From Candidatus Obscuribacter phosphatis (GTDB taxonomy: Bacteria > Cyanobacteriota > Vampirovibrionia > Obscuribacterales > Obscuribacteraceae), in assembly GCA_001899315.1 (NCBI GenBank), contig MOYA01000001.1:559105-623104 (forward strand): a DNA stretch of 64,000 nucleotides, read 5' to 3'. The notes under the pieces are model-generated. The model ran no database searches. It was given only the letters and a program-made list of their open reading frames with translations, and was not told the origin of the DNA. Position numbers and translations under genes: made by a program. Shown here piece after piece: positions 39,558 through 54,600 of the stretch. The stretch's first letter is position 1. Each line of letters opens with the position of its first letter.

Positions 39558-40637
39558 TCAGGCTCTGGGGTGAGTGTTCATATAAACACGCCGCAATCTT
39601 TCCAGGCTTACATGGGTGTAAATCTGGGTGGTATTGATGGTTGTGTGTCCCAGCAAATCTTGCACCACTCTCAGGTCGGCGCCGCCTTCCAAAAGGTGGG
39701 TGGCAAAGGTGTGCCTGAGTGTATGGGGCGTGATTGTTTTGTTGATGCCGGCTTTCAGGGCGTGCTTCATAACAATTCTGTGCACCGAGCGGGACGACAA
39801 TCTGGTCGCTTGCCTGCTCACAAAGAGGGGCAGTTCGGCTTGGGGCAGTCTGCCTTCGGCAAGTTTGGACCAATATTCGTTGAGATATTTTTTCAGCCAG
39901 CCTTGGGCGCTCTGGTTGAGCAGTACAACTCTTTCCTTACCGCCTTTGCCCAGCACACGCATTTCCATGGCTTCTTGATTGTAATCTTGCACTCTCAGTC
40001 CGCAAAGTTCACTGACCCGCATACCGGTTGCATAGAGAACTTCCATCAAGGCCCGGTCTCTGACACCAAGTATGGTGTTGGTATCGGGGGTCATAAGCAG
40101 TCTCACTACTTCTTCTTTATCGAGGCAAGCAGGCAGTCTTCTCGTTAGCTTAGGACCACGCACCTGTTTAGAAGGGTCTTCTTCAATCAATTGTTCTCTG
40201 CGCAAGTAGCGATAGAAACTTCTGATCGCCGAAATTTTTCTTGCCACAGTCGGTCTTGAATACTGCTCTTGAATTTGTCTGATGTAGGCTCTCAGTCCCT
40301 CGGCTTCCAGCCAGCCACTACCTGGGGTCATAGTGGTACCGCTTACCGACTGCTCTGTGGTCGGCATATTCTGAGGCGGAACACCTTCTATAGTGGCGCT
40401 TTGATTTTCGTTGGGCAGATCGCAACCGATCAGCTGTCGCAGATCATTCATATAAGCCCGAATTGTGTGTGATGAATAGTTTCGCTCTACCTCAAGGTAG
40501 CCTGCGAACTGGTCCAGCCAGATCTGATGACTGTTTGATGCGCCACTATTGATGGCGCCACTCATAGAACCACTTATAGTTCCGTGGGTGGTTTCATTCA
40601 TAGTTCCATCGATTGCGTTGTGCGATTGCGAATTCAC
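39558..40637 (-). CDS. Xer-type tyrosine recombinase
   Basis: A 359-residue tyrosine recombinase. The SAM-like core-binding domain (QFAGYLEVERNYSSHTIRAY) is followed by a catalytic domain with Arg in YATGMRVSELCGL, Lys in LGKGGKERVV, HTLRHTFATHLLEGG, and His/Tyr in LLGHTTINTTQIYTHV. The set RKHRHY is intact. It resembles chromosomal XerC/XerD and probably resolves chromosome dimers. It is longer than the usual 300 residues because of a polar N-terminus (about 33 residues) and a polar insertion of about 35 residues inside the core-binding domain (ENQSATIEGVPPQNMPTTEQ). No phage or integron context surrounds it, so a housekeeping role is most likely. Confidence 0.93.
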   Translation of the reverse strand: MNSQSHNAIDGTMNETTHGTISGSMSGAINSGASNSHQIWLDQFAGYLEVERNYSSHTIRAYMNDLRQLIGCDLPNENQSATIEGVPPQNMPTTEQSVSGTTMTPGSGWLEAEGLRAYIRQIQEQYSRPTVARKISAIRSFYRYLRREQLIEEDPSKQVRGPKLTRRLPACLDKEEVVRLLMTPDTNTILGVRDRALMEVLYATGMRVSELCGLRVQDYNQEAMEMRVLGKGGKERVVLLNQSAQGWLKKYLNEYWSKLAEGRLPQAELPLFVSRQATRLSSRSVHRIVMKHALKAGINKTITPHTLRHTFATHLLEGGADLRVVQDLLGHTTINTTQIYTHVSLERLRRVYMNTHPRA

Positions 40638-40908: not shown

Positions 40909-41004
40909 CGGGGATGCGTGGGAATCGAACCCACCCGGGACTGGATCAGCCAGCCCCACAACGGTTTTGAAGACCGTGCACCACACCAGCAGTGCTCCAT
41001 CCCC
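40909..41004 (-). tRNA. selC: tRNA-Sec(UCA), selenocysteine tRNA
   Basis: Read on the minus strand, this 96-base gene has the features of bacterial tRNA-Sec. The anticodon arm ACGGT-CTTCAAA-ACCGT gives anticodon TCA, reading UGA. The acceptor GGGGATG/CATCCCC has seven clear pairs; the eighth position, usually paired in tRNA-Sec, is a G-G mismatch. The T arm is GTGGG-TTCGATT-CCCAC. The long variable arm (GTGGGGCTGG to CCAGTCCCGG region) and extended D arm fit the class, and the discriminator is G. No CCA is encoded. It implies that SelA, SelB and SelD exist elsewhere in the genome; none is in this window. It lies upstream of rpoB on the opposite strand. Confidence 0.95.
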
Positions 41005-41546: not shown

Positions 41547-45041
<3,495 letters not shown>

Positions 45042-45118
45042 GAAGTCAAAAGTATCGTGGCTCAGGCCACATCCCACTAGGTTAGCCGCATAGCGGCAAT
45101 GGAGGACTGTCAGGTACC

Positions 45119-46918
45119 ATGCCTACAAGTATTGACCGATTTGACTACATCAAAATTGGAATCGCGTCACCGGAGCGTATTCTCAGTTGGTCTCACGGCG
45201 AAGTAACCAAGCCCGAGACAATCAACTATAGAACGCTCAAACCGGAGAAAGACGGACTTTTCTGCGAGCGCATCTTTGGACCTTCTAAGGACTGGGAATG
45301 CTATTGCGGTAAGTACAAGCGCGTTCGTCACCGCGGTATCACTTGCGAACGCTGCGGCGTCGAAGTGACCGATTCAAAAGTACGCCGTCACAGAATGGGT
45401 CATATCAAACTGGCTTCGCCGGTAACCCATATCTGGTTCCTCAAGGGCATCCCGAGCTATATTGGTCTTTTGCTCGACCTGCCCTTGCGTGATTTGGAAC
45501 AGGTTGTCTATTTCAACGCTTATGTCGTAACCAACGCCGGTAACGCGCCTGATTTGCATAAAAATCAGTTGCTCGCCGAAGACGAGTACGAAAAGCTTCT
45601 CGAAGATCCCAACCTGCAGTTCGACGTCGGTATCGGTGCCGAAGCCATCAAGCAACTCTTGCACGATTTGGCCAAGCCCGTCTACGAGCGTCCGGACAAC
45701 AAAGACGACCGTGGTCGCCTCATTGAACTGCCCGGTTTGAGAGAAATCTCGGTTGCTCTCCGTGAAGAACTCGCCGGCTCCGGTGGTTCACAGCAGAAGC
45801 GGGCCAAGATCATCAAGAGACTGAGACTGGTGGAAGCTCTGCTTTCATCACATACCGACCCCACCTGGGTCATTCTCGATAATCTCCCGGTCACCCCGCC
45901 CGACCTGCGCCCCATGGTGCAGCTCGATGGTGGACGCTTCGCCACTTCCGACTTGAACGATCTCTATCGTCGCGTGATCAACAGAAACAATCGTCTGGCC
46001 AGGTTGCTCGAAATGGGCGCTCCTGAAATCATCGTCAGAAACGAAAAGCGTATGTTGCAAGAAGCTGTCGATGCTCTCATCGACAACGGCAGAAGAGGTC
46101 GTGTGGTGGTCGGTCCCAACAACCGTCCGCTCAAATCGCTCTCCAACATCATCGAAGGTAAGCAAGGTCGTTTCCGTCAGAACCTGCTCGGTAAGCGCGT
46201 CGACTACTCAGGTCGTTCGGTTATCGTGGTTGGTCCGACACTCAAACTGCACCAGTGCGGTTTGCCCAGAGAAATGGCTCTTGAACTCTTCAAGCCCTTC
46301 GTGATCAATAAGCTCATCGAGCGCCAGATTGTTCAGAACATCAAATCAGCCAAGAAACAAATCGAGAAAGGCTCAGCCATCGTCTGGGAAATTCTGGAAG
46401 AAGTCATTCAAGGCCACCCGGTACTCCTGAACCGCGCCCCTACGCTCCACCGACTCGGTATTCAGGCTTTCGAGCCGGTACTGGTGGAAGGTCGCGCTAT
46501 CCAACTGCACCCACTTGTTTGCTCAGCCTTCAACGCTGACTTCGACGGTGACCAGATGGCCGTTCACGTACCTCTATCGGTAGAAGCTCAGGCTGAAGCC
46601 CACATGCTCATGTTGGCTTCCAACAACACCCTGCTTCCCGCCACTGGACGCCCCACCATCACTCCTACCCAGGACATGGTGCTCGGCATCTATTACTTGA
46701 CCATCGAAAAACCGGGCAACGACGATCCTTCCATCTGTCGCGGTGCCGGTATGCGTTTCGTTAGCCTCGCCGATGCTCGCTCAGCTTTTGAAGCCGGCAT
46801 TCTCGATCTGCACGCCAAAATCAAAGTTCGTGACTTTGACGGTCAGATGATTGAGACCACTCCTGGTCGCATCATCTTCAACCAGGTCGTGCGCGAAGCG
46901 ATCGCTACGGTCAACTAA
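45119..46918 (+). CDS. rpoC1: RNA polymerase gamma subunit (N-terminal half of beta')
   Basis: A 599-residue protein equal to the N-terminal half of bacterial beta', as in Cyanobacteria where it is called gamma. The zinc site is [20 protein letters not shown]. The catalytic magnesium motif [12 protein letters not shown] is intact, so this subunit holds the active-site aspartates. [18 protein letters not shown] and [16 protein letters not shown] are present. It ends with a true stop and is followed after 53 bases by rpoC2, which continues the beta' sequence; rpoC is thus split rather than frameshifted. The ATG is preceded by GGAGG at about 12 bases and AGG at five. Confidence 0.98.
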
Positions 46919-46971
46919 GCAGTGGATCGAAATTAGCTTTTACTGTCGATGCCATAAAAGACGAGGGACAA

Positions 46972-49900
46972 ATGGTCACAGGCGATAAGAAAGAAACAAT
47001 TGAATTCATCAACACCACAGTTGATAAAAAGAAGCTAGGTGCGCTTCTTTCCGATGTATACGAGCGCTTTGGTACAGCCCGCACAGCTGAGCTGGCCAAC
47101 GCTCTTAAAAACCTCGGTTTTAAATATGCCACCAAGGCCGGCGTCACAATCTCTATTGACGACTTAGATGTACCCGAAGCCAAAAAGGGTCTCATCTCAG
47201 CCGCCGAGAAAGAAATCGAAGCCGCTCAGAAGCGTTATGAACGCGGTGATATCACCGAAGTTGAACGCTACAACAAAGTAATCGATACCTGGTCTGCTAC
47301 AACCGACCAGCTCACAAAAGAAGTAGTCGATAACTTCGATAGACTGAACCCGGTTTACATGATGGCGTTCTCCGGCGCTAGAGGTAACATCTCTCAGGTT
47401 CGTCAGCTTGTCGGTATGAGGGGCTTGATGGCTGACTCTCAAGGTCAGATTATCGACTTGCCCATCAAAGCCAACTTCCGTGAAGGTCTGAACGTTACCG
47501 AGTACATTATCTCCAGCTACGGCGCCAGAAAAGGTCTCGTAGATACAGCGCTCAAGACAGCCGACTCTGGTTATCTGACCAGACGTCTCGTCGACGTTGC
47601 TCAGGACGTAATCGTGCGTGAGCCCGACTGCGGCACCAAGCGTGGTATTGCCATGCAGCCGATCTCGGAAGGCGACAAAGACATGGTCAAGCTTGCTGAG
47701 CGTATCTACGGTCGCACACTGGCTGAAGATGTAGTCGATCCTGAAACTGGTGAAGTAATCGCCAGACTGGGCGAACTTGTCACCCGTAAGCTCTCCACCA
47801 CTATCGACGGCGCACTCAAGAAGCCCAAGAAAGTGAAGGTAAGGTCACCGCTCACTTGCGAAAGCCAGTACGGTGTCTGCCAGAAGTGCTACGGCTGGTC
47901 TCTCACCAACAACAGATTGGTCGATCAGGGTGAAGCAATCGGTATCATCGCTGCTCAGTCAATCGGTGAACCTGGTACACAGCTGACCATGAGAACATTC
48001 CACACCGGTGGTGCGGTCTCAGGCGGCAGCAGCCGTAACCAGGTTAAATCTCCCGCTAAGGGCACAGTCTCCTTCAAGCTGCAGAGCCGTTCCATTCGTA
48101 CCGCTTATGGCGATGTTATGGAACAGACCACCAGAGATGGTGTCATGAAAGTAGTTGCCGGAGAGAAAGAACATTCGGTCAATATCCCTATTGGTTCTTT
48201 CTTGCACGTCAGCAGCGGCGCCGAAGTGACAGCCGGACAGGTGCTCTGTGAGTACGATCCGCCGGGTCAGAAAAAGAACTTGACTGAGCGCGCCACCAAA
48301 GATATCACTGCCGATATCTCCGGTCGTATCATGTTCCAAGGCTTCCAAGCCGACGAAAAACGCGACCGTCAGGGCAACATCTCTAGAACAGCCAACCGCG
48401 CCGGTATCATCTGGGTACTGGAAGGCGACGTTTACAACTTGCCTTCGGGCGCCCATGTGGTCGTCAAAGACGGTCAAGAAGTGAACGCTCTCGATGTTCT
48501 AGCCGAAATTCAAATCACTTCCGAGCATGGTGGTGAAGTGAGATTTGGTCCTGAAATCGAGACCGAAGTGGTAAAAGTTGGTCGCAGCAAAACCCAAACC
48601 AGATTGGTCAAGGGTAAAGAAATCAACGTCATCATCGCCTCGGTCGGTGCAAGCAACGCCAAGCTCGAACCCGGTCAGAAAGGTCATGTTTGGAAAGTAG
48701 CCAAACAGAAAGAATCTTTCGCCATCAAAGTGGTAAACGATGAAGTGGTCGAGAACGGCAAAATCATCGCTGAGCTTGTTGACGATGGTACAAACGTAGT
48801 CAGCTGCGGCGGCGAGATCATCTATGATGGCGTCGAAATCGACGACAGAAGAGTTGTCACCAAGGCCGGTAAAGTGCTCTTCGTTCCCGAAGAAGTACAC
48901 TTTATCTCGAAAGACAGCTCGCTCAAGATGTCTGAAACCGGCGAAACAGTAACAGCCGGTCAAGAAGTGGTCAAAGATGTATTTGCCCATATGGAAGGTG
49001 TTATCGAGATCATCGCTGATAACGACATCATCCACGAAGTAATCATCAGACCCGGCGAACTGGTGCCGATCAACGATCCTTCCGACCTGCGCGTTCCCGA
49101 AGGTCAGATTGTCGAGCCCGGTACCGAGATTATCGATGGTCTTACCTATAAAGAGCGCAAGCTGGTAAGTTTCTTCGAGAAAGAAGACGGTTCCTGCTAT
49201 GCCCTGGTTAGACCGGTGGAAGAGTATTGGATCGAGCCCAGAGAGACCAAGTTCAAGCACAGAGCAACCGACGAGAAAATCTCGCTCCGCTCCGTCACCC
49301 AGTTGCTTTTCCGCGATCGCGAAAAAGTGCGTAACCTGCAAGGCGCCCAGCTGACCAGAACCTCACTGGTTCTGCAGATGCAAGGTCACCTGCAAGGTCT
49401 CAAGGGTATTGTCGAAATGGGCGAAGAGTTGCTCATTGTCGTCCAAGAGAACATTCTCTTGCGCCGTGAGCAAGACCTCAACGTCACCCTGCTCGCCGTC
49501 GAACATGGTCAGGTAATCGAAGCGAAAGAGCCGGTAGCCACCACCCAGGTGCTCACCCGCACTTCCGCCCGCGTACAGCTGTCCAAGAACGACGAGCGCC
49601 GTATTCTTCTAATCACCGAAGAACAGCAGACACATCAGAAAATCAAAGGCACTGCCTCCGTCAAAGACGGTGATTTGATCCGTCTCGGCGATAACCTATC
49701 CAAGTCTTCCACAGCCGGAGTCTCCGGTCAGGTCGTCTCGGTGGACGGTGCCGATGTCGTGATCAGAAAAGGCAGACCTTATCTGATCTCGGTCAACACC
49801 CAATTGCAGTCTGAAGACGGCGCCCTGGTGCAAAGAGGCGACTTGCTCGCTACTCTCATCTTCGAAAGACAGAAAACCGGGGACATCGTTCAGGGTCTTC

Positions 49901-50658
49901 CTCGTGTAGAAGAGCTTCTTGAAGCCAGAAAGCCGAAAGAGAACGCCATTCTCGCTGAGAAAGAAGGACGCGCCCGCATCCTTACCGAAGACGACGTAAC
50001 CAGGCTCTTCTTGGTCTTCGGCGACGGTACCGAAGAAGAAGTGGTGATTCCTCAGGGTCTCAACGTTATCGTTGAAGACGCTGAACAAATCACCCTCGGC
50101 ACCGCCCTCACCGACGGACCGCCCAACCCTCACGACATTGTCAGACTGCGCGGCATCGCTGCTGCTCAGAAATATCTGGTCGATGAAGTGCAGTCCGTTT
50201 ACCGCTCTCAGGGTGTAGACATCGCCGACAAACACATCGAAGTGATTGTTCGTCAGATGACCCGTAAAGTGCGCGTAGATGAACCGAAGGACACCATCTT
50301 GCTCCCCGGTGAGCTGATGGAGCGTTACATCATCGATCAAGAAAATGACAAGATGGGTCAGCAAGGTCTCGAGGGTGCCACCTACACCGACGTACTGCTC
50401 GGTATCACCAAGGCTTCACTCAATACCGAGAGCTTCATCTCAGCCGCTTCCTTCCAGGAAACCACAAGAATCCTCACCGAAGCTGCTGTTGAAGGTAAGA
50501 AAGACTGGCTGCGCGGTCTCAAAGAGAACGTCATCATCGGTCGTCTTATTCCTGCCGGTACTGGCTTCCAGGGTCATTCACAGCCCCAGGAAGAAGAGGA
50601 AGAAGAGGAAGATATCTATCCGCCCATCGGTGAAGGCAGCTTCAACGTTCCGGCCTGA
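46972..50658 (+). CDS. rpoC2: RNA polymerase beta' subunit, C-terminal half (split rpoC)
   Basis: A 1228-residue protein equal to the C-terminal half of beta'. Key blocks: [20 protein letters not shown], the bridge/trigger sequence [16 protein letters not shown], and the zinc knuckle [11 protein letters not shown]. After the trigger-loop block lies a long insertion (about residues 350-800), rich in beta strands and repeated KDGQEV/TAGQ-type turns, comparable to the cyanobacterial SI3 sandwich-barrel insertion but shorter than in most cyanobacteria. The C-terminal parts ([40 protein letters not shown]) are conserved. GAGGGACAA precedes the ATG. The operon ends in a strong terminator. Confidence 0.98.
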   Translation: [1228 protein letters not shown]

Positions 50659-53308: not shown

Positions 53309-53402
53309 TACGAATTAATCTTTTTTTGCTGTCCAAAATTGAACTTTTTGCTCATGATGATCGTTATAGAGATATGGACATTTCTCTAAACGAGGTCGGC
53401 TT

Positions 53403-54512
53403 ATGTATCAATTTAGATTTCCCAAACGGCTATTAGCTTTAGCTATGCTGGCCGCCTGCACCTTAACCTTGCCGGCCCAAGCTGGTCCCAAGCTTATAAC
53501 CGGCACCGAACAGTGGGAGAATGTCAATTATCTATTGACCGAGATTCCCTGGTATCAGAGTCTTTCGCAGGCCCAAGAAGCGGCTCGCCAGAAAGGCAAG
53601 ATGGTCTTTTATATGCACATATTGGGCAAACTGAACGGGGCCACTTGAAGCGCCGGAAATAGTTTGAGAGCCGTGTCGCTCTCTTCGCCTCAAGTAGTAA
53701 GTGTTCTCAAAGATAATTTTGAATGTGCCACCCGAGATATAACTGGGTCGGAGTATTCGGGTGTTTCCGGCAAGCATGAAGTGACCGGCAAGGCGGTTCG
53801 CACTACAAACGGTGCCGGCCCGCACAATATTCAGATGTTCATGCTGGCCTCAGACGGCACTGTATTGCATTGCCTGCCGGGCTATTGGGCTCCTGCCGAT
53901 TTAGTCCATGAAGTAGATCTGGCTAAAAAGCTCAATACCGTGTGGACAAGCAATATGAGCTATGACCAGAAACGCCGTGAGTTCTACCGGCTGCATTTAG
54001 CTCATGCCTATGCCCATTCAGACGCCACCAAGATGCGCAGCAAAATGCAGGGTTTCGACCAGAAATACGAGGCAAAGCATAGACTTTCCACCTCGGATAC
54101 AATCTTGAACCCCACCCTGGCTGCGCAGATACTTGAGCCGGGTGGCAAGGCTCCCCCTGGAGCCTTCAAGACCACTGACCTAATCATGCATGAAAGAATG
54201 GCAGTACGTCCTTTCCTTCCCTATAATCAGTTCGATGTTGCGGCATACAGCGATTATGGCCGCCCGCTTTATGACAAGAACGAAGACTATCGCACTGCTT
54301 CGGGTGAAGTCGATAAAGATGCCGCCAAGCATGCGCCGCGCATAGGTAATGTCGATGCCATGAAGCAAGCAAAGATGAAAGGCGGCGGCGTTTCTAACGC
54401 TTCCGGTTCCGGCTCCGGCTCCGGCTCGGGCTCTTCTCGTATGGCATCTTATTTGACTAGACGTGGGGTTCGCACCTTTACCCGCATGGGGGTAAGAGCC
54501 CTCACCAACTAA
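53403..54512 (+). CDS. Probable thioredoxin-like selenoprotein (in-frame UGA read as Sec82)
   Basis: A 369-residue protein if the UGA at 53646-53648 is selenocysteine. The 81-codon 5' part and the 3' part are in one frame with no other stop. The N-terminus has a signal peptide with a lipobox (MLAAC, Cys19), or signal peptidase I could cut after AQA. A thioredoxin-like domain spans the [22 protein letters not shown], then NGATU, then [17 protein letters not shown], then DNFECATRD, ending in [19 protein letters not shown]. Sec aligns with the first Cys of CxxC; the partner is absent, so it would be a single-Sec enzyme. A SECIS-like hairpin follows, and a tRNA-Sec is in this window. GAGGT lies seven bases before the ATG; the C-terminus is Gly/Ser-rich. 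Confidence 0.82.
53666..53683 (+). promoter_or_regulatory. Candidate bacterial SECIS hairpin
   Basis: GAGAGC (53666-53671) pairs perfectly with GCTCTC (53678-53683) around the six-base loop CGTGTC. There are 23 bases between the UGA and the loop, within the 16-37 range of the general bacterial SECIS model, and G is the second loop base as that model requires. It lies inside the coding sequence, as bacterial SECIS elements do, where SelB would bind. Confidence 0.65.
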
Positions 54513-54567
54513 CAGGTCAATGGTCTACAGTCCGGCACTATTTCAAGTGCTGCAATTTGATAAAATC

Positions 54568-54600
54568 ATGCACTGAGTCTTAACTCAGTGCATATTTTTT
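54568..54600 (+). terminator. Strong intrinsic terminator of the selenoprotein gene
   Basis: ATGCACTGAGT (54568-54578) pairs perfectly with ACTCAGTGCAT (54583-54593) around CTTA, followed by ATTTTTT. It lies 55 bases past the stop of the full-length frame and directly before the response regulator gene, so the frame ends as one transcription unit. Confidence 0.93.

Follow-up and report, generated by a model that had tools for sequence, protein, structure and literature searches.

A conserved in-frame UGA points to an apparently unnamed family of thioredoxin-like selenoproteins in the Obscuribacterales

A stretch of 64,000 nucleotides from Candidatus Obscuribacter phosphatis (contig MOYA01000001.1, positions 559,105 to 623,104; hereafter the window) carries a gene whose reading frame is interrupted once by UGA and whose product is almost certainly a selenoprotein into which, we infer, selenocysteine (Sec) is incorporated at this codon. 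The frame, from 53403 to 54512, contains a single internal TGA at codon 82 and ends in TAA; the sequence-only reading, made from the letters of the window, had described it as one frame split only by a UGA, and translation bore this description out. The genome carrying the window (5.49 Mb) belongs to Candidatus Obscuribacterales (Melainabacteria, Cyanobacteriota), whose host is a relative of the cyanobacteria that does not photosynthesise, and its nearest public relative, with 99% identity over this protein, is a Candidatus Obscuribacterales metagenome-assembled genome. The gene is not a singleton but one of a large multi-copy family, here called family 1, with sister families and with relatives in Planctomycetota. 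The coordinates of its features are given in Table 1.

Sixty related genomes were searched, and members of family 1 were found in 28 of them, with up to six matches per genome. The codon aligned with codon 82 is TGA in 58 of the 59 alignable homologues and a Cys codon in the remaining one (L059), and the conservation of TGA extends to homologues of 38% identity. One further copy in a relative, L029, is degraded, carries an extra stop and could not be scored at this position. In the GTDB contig collection, whose loci overlap with this set of homologues, TGA was present at 57 of 58 loci, the exception being a TGT in the same Cys gene. The earlier expectation that homologues would carry a Cys or a Sec codon at residue 82 was thus confirmed, as Cys was the only alternative residue and no Trp was seen in the homologues or the GTDB loci. 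A second family 1 member in the same genome, 47% identical to the first, likewise contains one TGA.

Compared with the homologue L004, the nonsynonymous and synonymous substitution rates (dN and dS) were 0.27 and 1.8 upstream of the UGA and 0.14 and 2.1 downstream of it. As dN is far below dS on either side, purifying selection acts after the TGA too. Gene callers would split the frame, and a degraded copy with an extra stop exists in a relative, both of which would suit a nonsense mutation or a sequencing error in a pseudogene or misread gene; but dozens of assemblies made independently, from several genera and from two phyla, share the TGA at this position, and this conservation, together with the selection downstream, already refutes such an explanation, whose probability we consider close to nil.

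In the phylogenetic tree the Cys gene (L059, or L129; G001:C80) is nested inside a Sec clade (support 99/88), and its Cys is for this reason most likely derived from Sec by a later change; the placement could be refined, as the gene sits on a long branch. UGA is not simply a sense codon in this lineage. A frame open through UGA would by itself permit a reading as Trp or another ordinary amino acid, but 10 of the 42 long open reading frames of the window end in TGA, as do several members of the family, the sole alternative residue at the codon is Cys, and tRNA-Sec, SelA, SelB and SelD are all present, so that ordinary decoding of UGA throughout the lineage is extremely improbable.

The tRNA-Sec that had been noted in the window was confirmed by two methods (Table 1), and the search of the genome for the other components that the sequence-only reading had proposed recovered selA (502 bits), selB (257 bits) and selD (349 bits), all above the family cut-offs. 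Taking matches of more than 60 bits as real tRNA-Sec, the family 1 gene and the tRNA were both present in 27 of the 60 genomes and both absent in 29, whereas three had the tRNA only and one, which is 65% complete and carries selB, had the gene only. For this co-occurrence the Fisher p was 2e-12 over all 60 genomes and 4e-5 when the taxonomic family was taken alone; because the genomes are related these values are too small, but the pattern still holds inside the taxonomic family. In six genomes (G000, G001, G002, G006, G013 and G027) a family gene lies on the same contig as the tRNA-Sec at a distance of up to ~25 kb.

The relatives with tRNA-Sec and no family 1 gene are G010, G018 and G023, and G032 carries selB only. 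Frames resembling the formate dehydrogenase alpha subunit were found without in-frame stop in G010, G023 and G032, and no such frame was found in G018. In the genome of the window a scan that was not exhaustive found no other Sec protein, the formate dehydrogenase alpha-like and SelD frames being free of in-frame stops.

A hairpin with the geometry of a bacterial Sec insertion sequence (bSECIS) had been described 23 bases after the UGA. Its stem begins 17 nt and its loop 23 nt after the UGA, and its folding energy is -9.3 kcal/mol. According to published rules, a bSECIS has a loop of 3-9 nt, a stem of 4-16 bp and a G in the first two loop positions (PMC13188914, Fig. 2A), lies 16-37 nt from the UGA and has a minimum free energy of -7.5 or lower (PMC13188914). 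The present hairpin agrees with all of these, with a loop of 6 nt, a stem of 6 bp and G at loop position 2.

When 71 nt of the single sequence were folded, the result did not reach significance (z -1.27), and the case for a SECIS therefore rests on comparison and on the local hairpin of 22 nt (z -3.4). Since the region also codes for protein, synonymous recodings were used for the comparison, and against these the hairpin reached p < 0.05 in 92% of 77 distinct sequences, with a mean z of -3.2. Standard pairs filled 92.5% of the pair cells in 42 sequences, against 39-65% when the strands were slid, and in eight sister-family sequences one G-C pair of the stem is replaced by A-U. The Planctomycetota members have different stems at the same position, for instance GAGGAC-GGAC-GUCCUC, and nine of ten gave p < 0.05 against synonymous recodings. 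Coding constraint does not account for the conservation of the hairpin, which upholds the element first proposed from its geometry. With a covariance model built in part from this very sequence, the site scored 57.1 bits and nothing else in the window exceeded 12.3; in the whole genome, the two family 1 genes were the only strong matches. In the Cys gene, the sole Cys member of family 1, the 6-bp SECIS stem is broken and a different 5-bp hairpin remains.

The thioredoxin-like domain that had been proposed to lie across the UGA was recovered in an AlphaFold2 model (predicted local distance difference test, pLDDT, 89.1; predicted template modelling score, pTM, 0.84), in which the N-terminal half adopts a thioredoxin fold that spans the UGA. 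Structural comparison by VIA-align gave Z values in the range of 8-11. The highest, Z 10.9 with 2.2 A over 109 residues, was for a DsbD-like C-terminal domain (3f9u), and a thioredoxin from Thermus (2lst, Z 10.3) and proteins of the DUF255 type were also among the best matches; 3ira reached Z 9.2. A sequence search of the PDB was empty. The model places Sec immediately ahead of the active-site helix, where a CxxC motif has its first Cys, in agreement with the earlier placing of Sec82 at the first redox Cys. In the homologue alignment the second position is Gly or Ala (UxxG/A) and Cys in none. When the first Cys of L175, a relative with canonical WCGFC, is set on the Sec, the downstream alignment is ungapped; in the profile alignment this Cys falls one residue off the Sec column, and the register is likely but not proven.

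T81, S83 and A84, which flank the UGA, are among the most conserved residues, and two further Cys are widely shared, Cys157 in 55 and Cys108 in 51 of the 59 homologues. A frame starting at TTG 53664 and running to 54512 exists, and the locus might on that account produce a short exported fragment and, by a restart at this codon, a separate second protein; yet the two halves form a single predicted thioredoxin domain and the residues on both sides of the UGA are the conserved ones just named, which makes two separate products highly improbable. At the N-terminus, a lipobox had been proposed. Its motif, LAAC, is present here, but a Cys occurs near this column in 4 of 59 homologues and is absent from L004, which is 74% identical, and the proposal is not supported; an ordinary AxA-type signal peptide fits the sequence better. 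Conserved positions of the helical C-terminal domain include Arg as well as the His and Asp residues H201, H205, D219, D259 and H263. Taken alone it gave no usable fold or Pfam match, which does not show its fold to be new.

Together these features make it probable that the gene product works as an exported selenol oxidoreductase. Sec, made by SelA and SelD, would be delivered as Sec-tRNASec by SelB to the UGA at codon 82 under the guidance of the downstream hairpin, and the signal peptide would export the 369-residue protein. The predicted thioredoxin domain would hold Sec in the nucleophilic position of the first Cys, at the N-terminus of the active-site helix, and since Gly or Ala stands where the second Cys would be, Sec probably works without its usual local partner. 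The selenolate may attack an oxidised substrate, such as a peroxide, a disulfide or a sulfenic acid, and the oxidised Sec could then be released either by a conserved Cys of the protein itself, Cys157 or Cys108, or by a thiol supplied from outside. Specificity for substrate or partner may come from the C-terminal domain.

Several points weigh against this interpretation. The case is built from sequence and predicted structure, from which we infer Sec incorporation, the resolving Cys and the step at the substrate, and the signal peptide was recognised by eye. Against solved structures, Foldseek gave weak E-values, of which the best was 0.0036. The site offers one redox residue where the CxxC type has two, and CxxC chemistry is absent. 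Within family 1, covariation at the level of single pairs of the hairpin is modest, and the register of the hairpin is shifted in some sequences.

Instead of acting as a redox nucleophile, the Sec might be a ligand that serves to bind or detoxify a metal or metalloid. The active-site motif without a resolving Cys and the conserved His and Asp residues of the C-terminal domain would suit such a role, and part of the known selenoproteins are predicted to bind metals (PMC13188914). We nevertheless consider it rather unlikely, as Sec sits at the nucleophile position of the thioredoxin fold, two further Cys are conserved, and no metal-binding family was detected in the C-terminal domain.

Neither Pfam nor NCBIfam contains a model that reaches its cut-off for any member scanned (39 members in the case of NCBIfam), Thioredoxin_7 scoring 12.2 bits against a cut-off of 27. 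The protein shares with the DsbD gamma domain, Thioredoxin_7 (PF13899) and Thioredox_DsbH, DUF255 (PF03190) the thioredoxin fold and weak profile matches at the active site, but it differs from them by Sec in place of the first Cys, Gly or Ala in place of the second, an additional C-terminal domain and scores below the cut-offs. The known thioredoxin-like selenoproteins of bacteria (thioredoxin UxxC, SaoT, HUIPC, VPGUxxT NF041383 and Trx7/PDZ NF041199) are likewise thioredoxin-like and contain Sec, whereas the motif here is TUSA[GA]N (UxxG/A) and the NCBIfam scores amount to 12-17 bits, the cut-offs lying at 275-300; NF041383 and NF041199 gave weak matches below cut-off to family 2, family 3 and the cyanobacterial orthologue described below, and none to family 1. 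A match to SenA (18.7 bits against 420) was below any usable level and was set aside.

A 2026 review lists 119 prokaryotic selenoprotein families (PMC13188914). Neither TUSA[GA]N nor the motif CUTNAR of family 2 is in this list, in which some families carry only a generic motif or none and might include the present one. Nothing on the family was found in the open-licence literature linking selenoproteins or selenium to Obscuribacter, Melainabacteria, Vampirovibrionia, Obscuribacterales or Planctomycetota. The family appears to be new and unnamed among the thioredoxin-fold selenoproteins, in line with the suggestion that it was undescribed.

Three sister families were recognised. Family 2 has adjacent Cys and Sec in the motif FCUTNAR (FCUTNARLARTVLF) and the hairpin at the same position; it includes L061-L069, from genomes G001, G005, G007, G012, G024, G028, G029, G034 and G035, and others, and TGA was present in all nine genes first fetched. 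Photosynthetic cyanobacteria have orthologues of family 2 of ~430 residues (L163-L169) with the motif LSCANSR, in which Cys stands exactly in the Sec column. These unnamed thioredoxin-like proteins match family 2 over the full length (~160-180 bits in intact copies); they differ from family 1 in having Cys instead of Sec, and match it directly over only ~73 residues (164 in one genome). One of them, L167 (G434), looks decayed, with two in-frame TGA and many conserved residues changed. Families 3 (CUxGGR or GUMASR) and 4 (TUGNGH) were seen as five genes, from four genomes, that share the position of the TGA, with hairpins less clear than those of families 1 and 2. Family 3 is represented by L170, L171, L172 and L173 (CUIGGR, CULGGR, GUMASR and CUPGGR) and family 4 by L174.

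Relatives were also found in Planctomycetota. In the class to which the genome with L115 belongs, 11 of 23 genomes gave a match, nearly always with one TGA, and TGA stood in the Sec column in all ten members that were read. Related genes are numerous in this phylum (L181-L190, from genomes G435, G436 and G454-G458), with up to nine matches in G436. tRNA-Sec is present in the genomes of L115 and L122, though with only 49 bits in the latter. Contamination of bins was considered as a source of these members and is unlikely, the GC content being 68-69% around L115 and L122 versus 50-53% at the Obscuribacterales loci. On balance, we favour the view that these proteins form an unrecognised superfamily of Sec-containing thioredoxin-like proteins with at least four subfamilies (TUSA[GA]N, CUTNAR, CUxGGR and TUGNGH), often in multiple copies, in Obscuribacterales and Planctomycetota. 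In many of these genomes it may be one of the main users of Sec, and in Cyanobacteriota, where photosynthetic relatives have Cys orthologues, it may be what maintains the Sec trait.

Table 1. Positions in the window of the selenoprotein gene, its parts and associated elements
Feature	Position	Strand	Description and basis
Selenoprotein gene	53403..54512	+	369 residues with Sec82, stop TAA; translation with TGA as Sec, frame continuing past this TGA in homologues
UGA codon 82, read as Sec	53646..53648	+	TGA in homologues
Probable ribosome-binding site GAGGT	53392..53396	+	6 nt 5' of the ATG; read from the sequence
Signal peptide (predicted), residues 1-27 (...LPAQA)	53403..53483	+	read from the sequence by eye; export presumed
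Thioredoxin-fold domain, Sec at N-terminus of active-site helix	53523..53948	+	AlphaFold2 model; VIA-align Z up to 10.9
bSECIS hairpin GAGAGC-CGUGUC-GCUCUC	53666..53683	+	loop 53672-53677 begins 23 nt after the UGA
Conserved helical C-terminal domain	53952..54386	+	alignment, model; without detected relative
Gly/Ser-rich low-confidence tail	54387..54509	+	pLDDT < 50 from model residue 300 onward
Intrinsic terminator hairpin with T tract	54562..54599	+	z -5.0
tRNA-Sec (anticodon TCA)	40909..41004	-	ARAGORN; Rfam RF01852, 73.7 bits

The strong terminator that had been noted after the gene was recovered as a hairpin followed by a T tract. No conserved neighbours were found around the family 1 genes, the largest cluster comprising 10 of 59 loci. 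Elsewhere in the window (41547-50658), rpoB is accompanied by split rpoC1 (45119-46918) and rpoC2 (46972-50658) genes, a cyanobacterial signature with which the assignment of the host to Cyanobacteriota is consistent. The tRNA-Sec gene and a phage-type integrase gene (39558-40637, minus strand) lie close to this cluster.

The gene described here belongs to a large selenoprotein family, present in multiple copies, whose members would be cut in two by ordinary gene calling. With it, the use of Sec is placed inside Cyanobacteriota; Cyanobacteria were named in a 2022 review, on the basis of older genome sets, among the lineages that appear to be without Sec use (PMC9312934). A natural series for the comparison of Sec with Cys is provided by the dozens of paralogues with Sec, the change from Sec to Cys inside the family and the cyanobacterial Cys orthologues of a sister family. 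How a UxxG/A site works with no resolving Cys nearby is a clear question of mechanism.
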